Made by a program: the position numbers and the translations under genes. Shown here in pieces: positions 12,520-15,529 of a stretch of 64,000 nt of DNA. Below the pieces are notes generated by a model. It was not told the origin of the DNA and did not search any database. It saw nothing but the letters and a program-made list of their open reading frames with translations. Source of the stretch: Oceanobacillus oncorhynchi (GTDB lineage: Bacteria; Bacillota; Bacilli; Bacillales; Amphibacillaceae); assembly GCF_000821065.1 (NCBI RefSeq), contig NZ_CDGG01000001.1:2232001-2296000 (forward strand), in the 5' to 3' direction. How positions within the stretch are numbered: position 1 is the first letter of the stretch; each line of letters begins with the position of its first letter.

Positions 12520-13461
12520 TTAGGAAACAGCTTCACTAATATACGGCTTAAGAGATTCGGTATAACACATCTCCCCATCCATTGTAACAACAATGCCTTC
12601 TATATCCTCTAACGCATCCAGCGCATCAATAATTTGGCGGGGAGACTTTCCGAATAAACGGCTTGTCCATATTTCGCCATCGACTGATTTTTTGGATACA
12701 ATGGTTAATCCGGCAATTTCTGATTCAATCGGATAGCCGGTGCGAGGGTCCAAAATATGGTGGTATGTCCGGTTATCCTTCGTGAAATTTCTTTCGTAAA
12801 TGCCAGAGGTAACCACAGATTGATTTAGAGCGTTTAACACAGCGATATACTTCCCGCGCGGCAGGAGCGGGTGTTGAATGCCGATGCGCCAGTATCCATC
12901 CGCTTGATTTGGGGAATTTCCATGAGTGATGACATTTCCACCTAAATTAATCAGGGCTTCCGATACGTCCATCGTTTCCAAATCCTGAATCAGAAGGTCG
13001 GCAATAAATCCTTTTGCCAGGGCGCCTAAATCAATAAACATCCCCGTGTGTTTTAAAAATACGGTTTGTTCTTCCTCATTAAGAATAATGTTTTCAGCGT
13101 TTGTTTTGCTGAGCAAGGATGCAATGGTTTTCGGCGAGGGAACATTCGCATCTTCAAATCCAATGCGCCAAGCTTGAACAAGGGGGCCGATGGTAATGTT
13201 TAACGCACTGTCTGCCGGAGTGCTGTGTTTCTTTCCGATTTTGATCAATTGGTACAAGCTCGGATTAACCTTTACCGGTCTTATCCCTGCATTTTGGTTC
13301 ACTTCCATCAGCTCTGAGCTTGCATCGTGCGCACTAAAACGTTTCTCGTATTCTGTTAATCGAAGAATCAATTCATCCAAAATAAAATCTGCATAGTCAT
13401 GCTGAACAGATAATTGGATAATTGTCCCCATCCTATGTATTTCACGTGTTTGCATTGTCAT
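12520..13461 (-). CDS. apbE: FAD:protein FMN transferase (ApbE), cytosolic form
   Basis: 313 residues. ApbE uses FAD to attach FMN through a phosphoester bond to a Thr/Ser of target proteins. Seen here: MGTIIQLSV near the N-terminus, DLGALAKGFIADL, LINLGGNVITHG and HHILDPRTGYPIES, the usual ApbE blocks including the Mg-binding region. No signal peptide or lipobox is present, unlike exported ApbE, so it should act in the cytoplasm. The ATG at 13461 has AGGGTG 6 bases upstream. Upstream on the same strand is an FMN reductase fusion with a DAVSGATS tail, its likely substrate; a terminator separates the two genes. Confidence 0.9.
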   Translation of the reverse strand: MTMQTREIHRMGTIIQLSVQHDYADFILDELILRLTEYEKRFSAHDASSELMEVNQNAGIRPVKVNPSLYQLIKIGKKHSTPADSALNITIGPLVQAWRIGFEDANVPSPKTIASLLSKTNAENIILNEEEQTVFLKHTGMFIDLGALAKGFIADLLIQDLETMDVSEALINLGGNVITHGNSPNQADGYWRIGIQHPLLPRGKYIAVLNALNQSVVTSGIYERNFTKDNRTYHHILDPRTGYPIESEIAGLTIVSKKSVDGEIWTSRLFGKSPRQIIDALDALEDIEGIVVTMDGEMCYTESLKPYISEAVS

Positions 13462-13593
13462 ACTTGTCACCCTTTTGCGTTAAGATACGTTGAATAGACG
13501 AAAGGATACTTGTCAGAAAATAGCTTCGGTTTTCATGAAGAATCATTCTGCAGCATCGTCTATAAATCAAATAAAGGTTTGAGACAGCACTTG

Positions 13594-13622
13594 AAAAAGA
13601 GGCCGTGTTGACCTCTTTTCCA
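13594..13622 (-). terminator. terminator of the FMN reductase operon
   Basis: On the minus strand AAAAGAGG and CCTCTTTTT pair across a 9-base loop, giving a T-tract just after the stop at 13633. Confidence 0.65.
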
Positions 13623-13632
13623 TGAACAATCT

Positions 13633-14823
13633 TTAGCTTTTAACCGTTGCTCCAGCTACGGTATCTACTTTTGAAGTCGCTCCGGATACCGCATCGACAC
13701 CGCCTCCGGTTAATTGCTGGCCAGTTTGCTCTAAATACCAATCAATGATTGGCTGTATATCTTGGACATATTCGTTGATGCCAATATAATTATCCTCATC
13801 ATCACGTACCGCCTGATAGCTGTGGACAACAAATTTATCTGGTCCATGAGTAGGAACCTGCGTCCTTACGACATCCTGTTTTCCGGTACGTAATTGCTGA
13901 ATGACCCAGGAAACGCCGCTAAATACTCTTTCCGGGTGACATTCTGCTAATGGACTTCCCACTTGTTCCGGTCTGCGTCCTGCCAGCATATCTTCTTTTT
14001 CCATGTTGTGGTTATAGTATAAGAATTGGTTATTGCTATCTGCATAAGTCAATTCGGCAGGCATGGAATTCAAGAAATGATTGAGCTGATTGACTGTTAA
14101 AAGCCCGCGATTTAATTTAACATACGTATTGCCTTCCACGGCCTGTGTTGCTTCAGCAGCCTGTTCAAGCCAGTCATCGGCGGACATATCGATGCCTTCC
14201 ACTGTCGTATCAATTGCTCCGGTAGCATATAAATCCTCTGTATCGGATACATCCTGCATTCCTTCAGGTGCATGGATAACCTTGACCACATTGATAAAAC
14301 GGATAAATTTCTTGATACACGTTTCTAAGAATTGAGCTGTCTGCGCATCTTTCAGGTTTTCGTCTTCATCAAATGCATCATAGACTTCCCCTAATAGAAA
14401 TTCATTTCCTGGCATAACGATAGCATTTACTCCAGGTGCATCTAATATTTGCCGCAAATGTAACTGAGACCGTGAAGATCCCTGGACATCATAAGAAGCT
14501 CCCACAATCATCACCGGTTTTTCATCAAGCGGATGTATTTTAAACGATAACCATTCTAAGACACTCTGTAATGCGGATGTAATAGAGTGGTTATATTCCG
14601 GTGTAGCAATAATCACGCCATCTGCCTGCATAATTTTATTATTTAAATTTTGAATCACTTCACTATTGGTTTGATCATCTGATTGGTTAAACATTGGGAC
14701 ATCCTTAATATCCAGTACTTCCACATCAACTAATTTCTTGAAATTTTTTGCGATAAAGTTTAATAATATGCGATTATAAGAAAATTCAGCATTTGATCCT
14801 ACGATTCCAACAAGTTTCATCAA
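13633..14823 (-). CDS. NADPH-dependent FMN reductase fused to a PAS-like domain and a C-terminal flavinylation tag
   Basis: 396 residues in three parts. Residues 1-185 are a flavodoxin-like NADPH-dependent FMN reductase ([13 protein letters not shown] phosphate loop; ATPEYNHSI flavin contact). Residues about 236-368 look like a PAS domain ([32 protein letters not shown]). After GGG, residues 377-383 read DAVSGAT, the core Dxx(S/T)GAT motif that ApbE flavinylates, and residues 387-393 read DTVAGAT, a near copy. No full FMN_bind domain surrounds the motif. The ATG has AGGGGGT upstream, 15 bases after the previous gene, so the two reductases form an operon. The predicted product is a cytosolic reductase with a bound FMN plus a covalent FMN arm; this is an inference. 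Confidence 0.82.
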
Positions 14824-14838
14824 TATACCCCCTAGTAA

Positions 14839-15447
14839 TTAATTGGTCTCCCACGAAAAGTTTGCTGCTTGTTTCTGGTGCGTTTCATTTGCGTTGACTA
14901 ATTGATTGGTGATATCCACAAAATGTATAAAATCATTAAAAATTTGTTCAAGTTCTTCTATTTTTTGTTGGTCTTTTAACGTGCCATTATCATCAAAAGC
15001 CTGTAACGAATAACCGATTAAAAATTCAGAACTTGGCATAATGCGTGCTTTCAATTCAGGCGCATCCAGCATTTGCCGCAAATGACTTTGTGCACGGGAA
15101 GATCCTAATCTTCCATAGGAAGCTCCAGTCAGCATAACAGGCTTATCAATTAATGCTTGATTTGTATAAGATAACCATTCTAACGTGCTTTTTAAAATGG
15201 CTGGTACGGAATGGTTATATTCCGGTGAACTGATAATCACGCCATCTGCTTCTCTGATTTTATCCGCAAGTTTTTGTACTTCCTGAGGTGCTGTCTTGTC
15301 TTCCGGCTTATTAAAAGCAGGTAAATGTTTAATTTCGAAAATTTCAATGTCAGCTTGATCTGCAAAATGTTTTTGAATAAATTGCAGTAAAATACGATTC
15401 GTAGAATAATCCGAATTTGTTCCTAGAATACTTAGAAATTTTTTCAT
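14839..15447 (-). CDS. NADPH-dependent FMN reductase family protein
   Basis: 202 residues, the flavodoxin-like fold only. LGTNSDYSTNR is the FMN phosphate loop and SSPEYNHSVPA the flavin contact motif; both align with residues 1-185 of the downstream fusion protein, so the two arose by duplication. No PAS part and no flavinylation tail are present. AAGGAGC precedes the ATG. It is the first gene of a two-gene operon read from a promoter at 15501-15529 that carries a TGTGA-N6-TCACA operator. Confidence 0.85.
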   Translation of the reverse strand: MKKFLSILGTNSDYSTNRILLQFIQKHFADQADIEIFEIKHLPAFNKPEDKTAPQEVQKLADKIREADGVIISSPEYNHSVPAILKSTLEWLSYTNQALIDKPVMLTGASYGRLGSSRAQSHLRQMLDAPELKARIMPSSEFLIGYSLQAFDDNGTLKDQQKIEELEQIFNDFIHFVDITNQLVNANETHQKQAANFSWETN

Positions 15448-15479
15448 TTTATTGCTCCTTTCTTATTTAGAAAAAAGAA

Positions 15480-15495
15480 TGTGAAGTATATCACA
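15480..15495 (-). promoter_or_regulatory. Rex/Fnr-type operator before the FMN reductase operon
   Basis: TGTGA-N6-TCACA is a perfect inverted repeat. Extended, TTGTGAT-ATAC-TTCACAT differs from the Rex consensus TTGTGAA-N4-TTCACAA at two positions, and it also equals the Bacillus Fnr core. It lies just downstream of the -10 box, over the expected start, which favours repression. Confidence 0.6.
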
Positions 15496-15500
15496 ATTTA

Positions 15501-15529
15501 ATTATAATATGTTTGAGCAAGAAATACAA
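15501..15529 (-). promoter_or_regulatory. promoter of the FMN reductase operon
   Basis: On the minus strand TTGTAT (15524-15529) and a perfect TATAAT (15501-15506) are 17 bases apart, 54 bases before the ATG. Confidence 0.6.

Follow-up and report, generated by a model that had tools for sequence, protein, structure and literature searches.

FMN reductases that are linked to apbE and carry one or two flavinylation motifs at the C terminus, mainly from Firmicutes, were described by Huang et al. (mSystems, 2024; PMC11334425). In the sections of that paper available to us, two tagged FMN_red proteins of Lactococcus (WP_021723379.1 and WP_205872264.1) were flavinylated and lost the modification upon mutation to Ala, with the cognate apbE named in one section and Listeria ApbE added in vitro in another; when the L. 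lactis dimer was modelled with AlphaFold the tags lay near the flavin site, and the tethered flavin was suggested to be held in the FMN_red site (PMC11334425). Flavinylation of tagged FMN_reds has been known since 2024. A second system, described in a review (PMC12052999), is the cytosolic fumarate reductase of Klebsiella with its ApbE-attached FMN; the available text of this review also reports that seven residues suffice as an ApbE tag, that a terminal position, N or C, gives the best results, and that ApbE favours Thr over Ser.

The window analysed here, a stretch of 64,000 nt from Oceanobacillus oncorhynchi, encodes a fusion protein that belongs to this known class of apbE-linked, C-terminally tagged FMN_red proteins. 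Like the Lactococcus proteins, as these are presented in the available text (PMC11334425), it has an FMN_red domain, a tagged C-terminal extension and an apbE nearby; the window fusion also has a PAS domain, whereas the words "PAS domain" are absent from the text of that paper, and its available sections mention neither a paralogue nor a signal-less ApbE. Since the listed proteins nearest the L. lactis plasmid homologue have PAS_10, the Lactococcus proteins of Huang et al. probably carry a PAS domain as well. In the Klebsiella system, from the accessible part of its description, ApbE is likewise signal-less and cytosolic, whereas the substrate protein is a fumarate reductase and that of the window an FMN_red-PAS protein (PMC12052999). 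Quinone/chromate reductases of the ChrR/YieF type (3svl, 1rtt and FerB, 3u7r), unlike the fusion, have neither PAS domain nor tag, and 1rtt keeps a phosphate-loop Arg that the module reductases lack. DUF438-type PAS_10 proteins (2qkp, 3cax) have the PAS domain in common with the fusion and presumably carry a hemerythrin-like front part where the fusion has FMN_red. For this kind of protein, the open-licence literature yielded Huang et al. and a table on S. agalactiae. Among open-licence papers we found no published account of the gene pairing, ApbE clade, operator or domain swap described below, and the accessible portions of a Bifidobacterium paper and an Enterococcus pheromone paper held nothing on the module. 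Its features in the window are as follows.

14839..15447, minus strand: opening gene of the module, encoding the standalone FMN_red paralogue of 202 aa (PF03358, 6.9e-36)
13633..14820, minus strand: fusion of FMN_red, PAS_10 and tagged tail, 395 aa from ATG 14820
14383..14820, minus strand: FMN_red domain of the fusion, residues 2-147 (TTG numbering; Pfam, 1e-36)
13753..14085, minus strand: PAS_10 domain of the fusion, residues 247-357 (Pfam, 4.4e-26)
13636..13710, minus strand: 25-residue tail of the fusion, predicted to be disordered (pLDDT below 50, residues 373-395)
13675..13695, minus strand: flavinylation tag 1, DAVSGAT, residues 377-383 (TTG numbering), fits the consensus
13645..13665, minus strand: tag 2, DTVAGAT, residues 387-393 (TTG numbering), Ala replacing the usual Ser/Thr
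12520..13461, minus strand: flavin transferase ApbE without a signal peptide, 313 aa if started at ATG (PF02424, 1.3e-72)
15480..15495, no strand assigned: palindrome TGTGATATACTTCACA, predicted operator of Rex or Fnr type, with 32 nt between it and the first start codon
15501..15529, minus strand: putative promoter TTGTAT-17-TATAAT, adjoining the palindrome on its upstream side, read by hand and absent from the promoter scan output
13595..13619, minus strand: terminator-like hairpin AAAAGAGG/CCTCTTTT plus T between fusion and apbE, read by hand

The genes run in the order standalone FMN_red, fusion and apbE, with apbE 171 nt downstream of the fusion; the standalone gene, which lies directly upstream of the fusion, goes beyond what the first-pass annotation of this interval contained. 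The fusion frame (13633-14823, minus strand) comprises 396 codons from TTG 14823 and 395 from ATG 14820; the ATG is the more likely start, judging from aligned homologues, which open with MKLVG, MKIVG or similar. For ApbE, an alternative GTG start at 13470 would give 316 aa. The hairpin, which has a loop of 9 nt, is absent from the output of the scan, for which loops of up to 8 nt were accepted. The FMN_red domain of the fusion is closest in fold to ChrR/YieF, and its PAS_10 domain resembles the C-terminal domain of S. mutans SMU_1151c, with 2qkp as closest structure; matches in the structure search mostly spanned residues 1-184, so the PAS part was barely covered. Ahead of the PAS domain, residues 195-245 (14086-14238), which start with EDL and end with TYVKL, are strongly conserved and confidently folded and match no Pfam family. 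The standalone gene and the fusion lie in the same frame and are separated by just one stop codon (14824-14841), as also occurs in 31 of the 80 loci introduced below; we found no evidence for read-through across this stop.

Both tags lie in the 25 residues that follow the last conserved Leu. Their positions in this tail, behind FMN_red and PAS domains and outside any FMN_bind domain, had been proposed in the first-pass annotation and were borne out. A complete FMN_bind domain concealed at residues 236-370 was looked for and not seen: Pfam FMN_bind reached 12.2 bits (cut-off, 22) over the motif alone, in a partial match of residues 373-390 to profile positions 52-69 of 77, and no FMN_bind (PF04205) match was found in this genome at E 0.001 or better. 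For the comparisons that follow, a strict motif was defined as D..[ST]GA[ST] and a loose motif as D..[STA][GS]A[ST], so that DAVSGAT is strict and DTVAGAT loose; the counterpart of tag 2 in most near relatives is DTVSGAT or DTVSSAT. Chance as the origin of the tail motif was ruled out by shuffling and by the absence of the strict motif from protein cores outside the tail among 80 loci. In 20,000 whole-protein shuffles, the strict motif fell within the last 25 residues in one (a fraction of 5e-5), one loose motif did so at 3e-4, and two loose motifs did so in none. The 80 loci are the best 80 of 571 confirmed genome loci, and the related species among them are dependent points. Their tails carried at least one loose motif in 80/80 cases and two to four in 79 (one motif once, two in 43, three in 23 and four in 13), making 208 motifs with Ser (167) or Thr (41) as the final residue. 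The strict motif was present in 61 tails, and the remaining 19 carried DxxSSAS-like forms. Tails were 25 to 95 residues long, motifs made up 43% of tail residues (1,456 of 3,416), and motif starts were spaced 10 to 34 residues apart. When this genome was surveyed with a DNA pattern of the strict motif, 25 matches were obtained (8 with the reversed pattern); among 11 checked besides the tail, four were in frame within ORFs of at least 90 aa and belonged to CPSase, an ABC transporter, glutamate synthase and Cpn60, and the other 13 were set aside by eye on their codons (a stop inside or no Ser/Thr).

Homologue searches with the fusion and with the L. lactis plasmid protein returned 1,385 and 1,444 proteins, respectively, of which the 120 listed from each were considered; the remainder may include plain FMN_reds. 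Both Pfam domains were present in all 240 matches listed, at least one loose motif in 240, and at least two in 230. With both domains in every one of the 240 homologues listed, and with tagged FMN_reds of Lactococcus already reported as flavinylated in the available text of PMC11334425, the combination of FMN_red with PAS_10, which had initially been taken as unusual, is, on these sequences, common in Bacilli. That part of the earlier interpretation was therefore abandoned, while the real ApbE tag, the signal-less ApbE and their genomic linkage stood. The module was found in Bacillaceae, enterococci, lactobacilli and streptococci, with matches over the full length of the alignment in 10 of 151 sampled Bacilli genomes. 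The L. lactis plasmid pUC11A encodes apbE, FMN_red and a fusion with two DATSGAS tags, which aligned across query residues 1-388.

The window ApbE had been described as lacking a signal peptide, and its hydropathy agreed: the top 15-residue mean in the first 45 residues was 0.71, versus 2.65 for this genome's lipoprotein ApbE. Signal status was judged throughout by such simple hydropathy rather than by a signal-peptide program, and lipoboxes by pattern. Co-occurrence of the fusion with ApbE, a check that the first-pass annotation had proposed, was found in 62 of the 80 loci, with apbE upstream in 45 and downstream in 17, always on the same strand, and none of these 62 ApbEs had a lipobox by pattern. 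In the sample of 151 Bacilli genomes, ApbE lay within 0.8 kb of the full-length match in 10/10 genomes, and in six of these ten it was the sole ApbE; ApbE was present overall in 69 of the 151. The 18 loci without an ApbE in the DNA examined around the module all came from genomes with an ApbE match elsewhere (18/18), and a signal-less copy was present in 16 of these genomes among the loci examined; of the other two, G008 contains a further ApbE frame, 308 aa long, and G005 is the Tetragenococcus halophilus genome described below. A single clade (FastTree support, 0.995) of a tree built from 123 ApbE sequences contained all 63 adjacent ApbEs (the 62 and that of the window) together with 23 of the 32 other signal-less ApbEs and none of the 28 signal-bearing ones, nine signal-less sequences falling outside. 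By this sequence grouping, the module ApbEs form a separate clade of signal-less ApbE.

A standalone FMN_red gene preceded the fusion in all 80 loci; the two genes were 11-35 nt apart in 77 of them and 187-326 nt apart in the other three. Among these 80 proteins, none had a tag motif past residue 150, and an end of the F-S-W-E type was present in 72 by a strict pattern, most others being similar. In the window, the phosphate loop of the standalone protein reads GTNSDYSTN. The Arg of this loop, which we take to contact the FMN phosphate, was present in 7/7 FMN_reds of the PEY type outside the module. At its position, the 78 readable fusions had Ala (73), Ser (2), Glu (2) or Thr (1), and the 79 readable standalone proteins had Ser (77), Ala (1) or Thr (1); fusions L048 and L070 and standalone protein L056, whose loops were unreadable, are omitted. 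Since an FMN phosphate in a diester with Thr might need the loop Arg less, its loss fits a tethered catalytic flavin. This is a weak hint, however, since 13 of 25 FMN_reds compared, from other subfamilies (one a gap), also lack the Arg, including L128, L129, L130 and L132 of this genome; this outside comparison covered 39 loci, of which 25 were read and 14 gave no ORF by pattern. A joined model of fusion and standalone protein was poor (mean pLDDT 70.0, pTM 0.39).

The palindrome upstream of the module is the sole exact copy of TGTGA-N6-TCACA in the window; this genome has 14 such places, and the reversed control gave none. Genes within 400 nt of the other palindromes include those for pyruvate formate-lyase (PFL), nitrate reductase NarG with a divergent MFS-PAS protein, and proteins of NADH:flavin oxidoreductase type, sodium:sulfate symporter type, CbiX, luciferase-like, DoxX and SSF families, and one palindrome sits inside an ORF. 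The product of the gene divergent from narG (L228:252-1799), with the operator between the two, is an MFS transporter with a C-terminal PAS domain. Three further palindromes occur at locus L003 (G000:C1:2662000-2680000), two by a lipoprotein ApbE and one by a 196-aa lipoprotein frame, in the company of genes for a Pyr_redox_2 protein of 641 aa, NusG_II, Hpre_diP_synt_I, a polyprenyl synthetase and a DHNA prenyltransferase. We take L003 to be a flavin-based extracellular electron transfer system of the Listeria type. It has ApbE and the operator sequence in common with the window module, whereas it combines a lipoprotein ApbE with membrane and prenyl-quinone genes and the module is another gene set. 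The exported proteins and lipoprotein ApbE by which extracellular electron transfer is recognised thus belong to a separate locus, the window ApbE being without a signal. The module has a predicted operator in common with genes of fermentation, nitrate respiration and extracellular electron transfer.

Across the 80 loci, the operator match was exact in 10 and at least 9/10 in 25, compared with none and about 1% in shuffles; in 43 the best match was at most 7/10, no better than shuffles, and the L. lactis plasmid scored 7/10. These counts took the first gene to start at its longest ORF start, and for some loci the stretch searched may therefore be in the wrong place. The window palindrome has the same sequence as the Rex operator of S. 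aureus, given as TGTGAN6TCACA in the accessible text of PMC8376106. PF06971, the Rex-type N-terminal family, has one match in this genome, which also encodes a CRP/Fnr-type protein with a C-terminal CX2CX4C, so that the same palindrome could serve an Fnr-type regulator; lying downstream of the hand-read -10, however, the palindrome is better placed for a repressor. The module is probably under Rex or Fnr, and this conserved three-gene system looks as if it were switched on upon oxygen shortage. In S. agalactiae, three neighbouring genes annotated as apbE, FMN reductase and FMN reductase change together (-2.09, -2.11, -2.12), and the proteome includes the product of the third, according to the accessible text of PMC6224512; the main text of the S. 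agalactiae Rex paper mentions neither FMN nor ApbE. The S. agalactiae trio is presumably the same module.

One relative has exchanged part of the fusion. In genome G152, the FMN_red fusion continues into FMN_bind and FAD_binding_2 domains in place of PAS domain and tail (808 aa, with DALSGAS; L223:3862-6288), and its neighbours are a standalone FMN_red gene, a LysR gene and then a signal-less ApbE gene on the opposite strand. The protein is probably a cytosolic fumarate-like reductase, in which electrons would pass from NAD(P)H to covalent FMN, FAD and a fumarate-like acceptor. It looks like a bridge between the Klebsiella fumarate reductase and the FMN_red-PAS kind, and the swap is our best comparative hint of an electron relay by covalent FMN.

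We consider it probable, with moderate confidence, that the module, under Rex/Fnr control, acts in the cytosol as an NAD(P)H reductase with covalently attached FMNs, which dock and pass electrons on. It would consist of the standalone FMN_red, the FMN_red-PAS_10 fusion, tagged twice at its C terminus, and a dedicated ApbE without signal, which would move FMN from FAD onto Thr382 (ATG numbering) and perhaps also Thr392. Being flexible, the tail would allow its FMN to dock in the FMN_red site of the fusion, and possibly also in that of the standalone paralogue, where the FMN would take hydride from NAD(P)H and then hand electrons to an acceptor; the PAS domain would be a docking or sensing module, and expression would rise with NADH accumulation or absence of oxygen via the Rex- or Fnr-type operator. 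Domains, tags, gene order, conservation, ApbE grouping and operator sequence are read directly from the DNA and its translations. Tail flavinylation, demonstrated by others in relatives, is likely for the window fusion; docking, relay, partner, acceptor and regulation by Rex or Fnr we infer. Against this explanation stand the 19 tails without a strict motif and the deviating tag 2 of the window, the 18 loci without an adjacent ApbE, the terminator-like hairpin that appears to split fusion from apbE here, and the 43 loci with an operator match at shuffle level.

A possible alternative, to which we give clearly less weight, is that the tag merely anchors an ordinary catalytic FMN in the FMN_red site, with no moving arm or relay, a reading that shares the docking step with the relay. 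It was suggested by Huang et al., with the tags near the flavin site in the L. lactis AlphaFold dimer (PMC11334425, from the text available), and the loss of the loop Arg in both reductases fits it at least as well as an arm that carries electrons away. Nevertheless, two to four loose tags in 79/80 tails exceed one per chain's site, unless the extras serve the paralogue, site and tail are separated by an entire PAS domain, tails range in length from 25 to 95 residues, and the FMN_red-FMN_bind-FAD_binding_2 protein of G152 fits a relay. A further idea, which we regard as rather unlikely, is that fusion and standalone protein form a heterodimer in which neither site, its loop Arg being replaced, holds its own FMN well, that the 2-4 tail FMNs are exchangeable for both sites like lipoyl arms, that the PAS domain is a delivery or sensing station, and that a build-up of NADH induces the system.

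Some PAS domains bind flavins, and the tail directly follows the PAS domain, so that the tethered FMN might sit in the PAS pocket and make the module a redox or light sensor instead of an enzyme. By design, a LOV domain has been given a covalently bound FMN with the help of ApbE (PMC12052999, in the part available to us), but no output domain was found by Pfam in the fusion, the PAS domain is closest to 2qkp, and the open-licence literature on DUF438 and PAS gave no ligand; we therefore hold a sensor to be improbable. That the tags are relics of an ordinary FMN reductase, with ApbE serving something else, would agree with the Ala at position 4 of tag 2 and is very improbable beside the loose tags in 240/240 matches listed, the separate ApbE clade, the six sampled genomes whose sole ApbE stands beside the module, and the Lactococcus flavinylation reported in the available text of PMC11334425. 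The constant untagged paralogue, the ApbE clade, the tails of 2-4 tags and the shared operator would give what had been an orphan modification a place in an anaerobic electron-transfer system that can be put to the test.

Two minor observations concern individual genomes. Many Enterococcus faecium plasmids carry homologues of the fusion, and so does an L. lactis plasmid, on which a Crp/Fnr regulator gene lies nearby (records e.g. NZ_CP011282.1, NZ_CP016720.2). In Tetragenococcus halophilus DSM 20339 (G005, locus L048), stops interrupt the second ApbE, and the ORF of the fusion is short too; both look broken, and a joint decay is possible.
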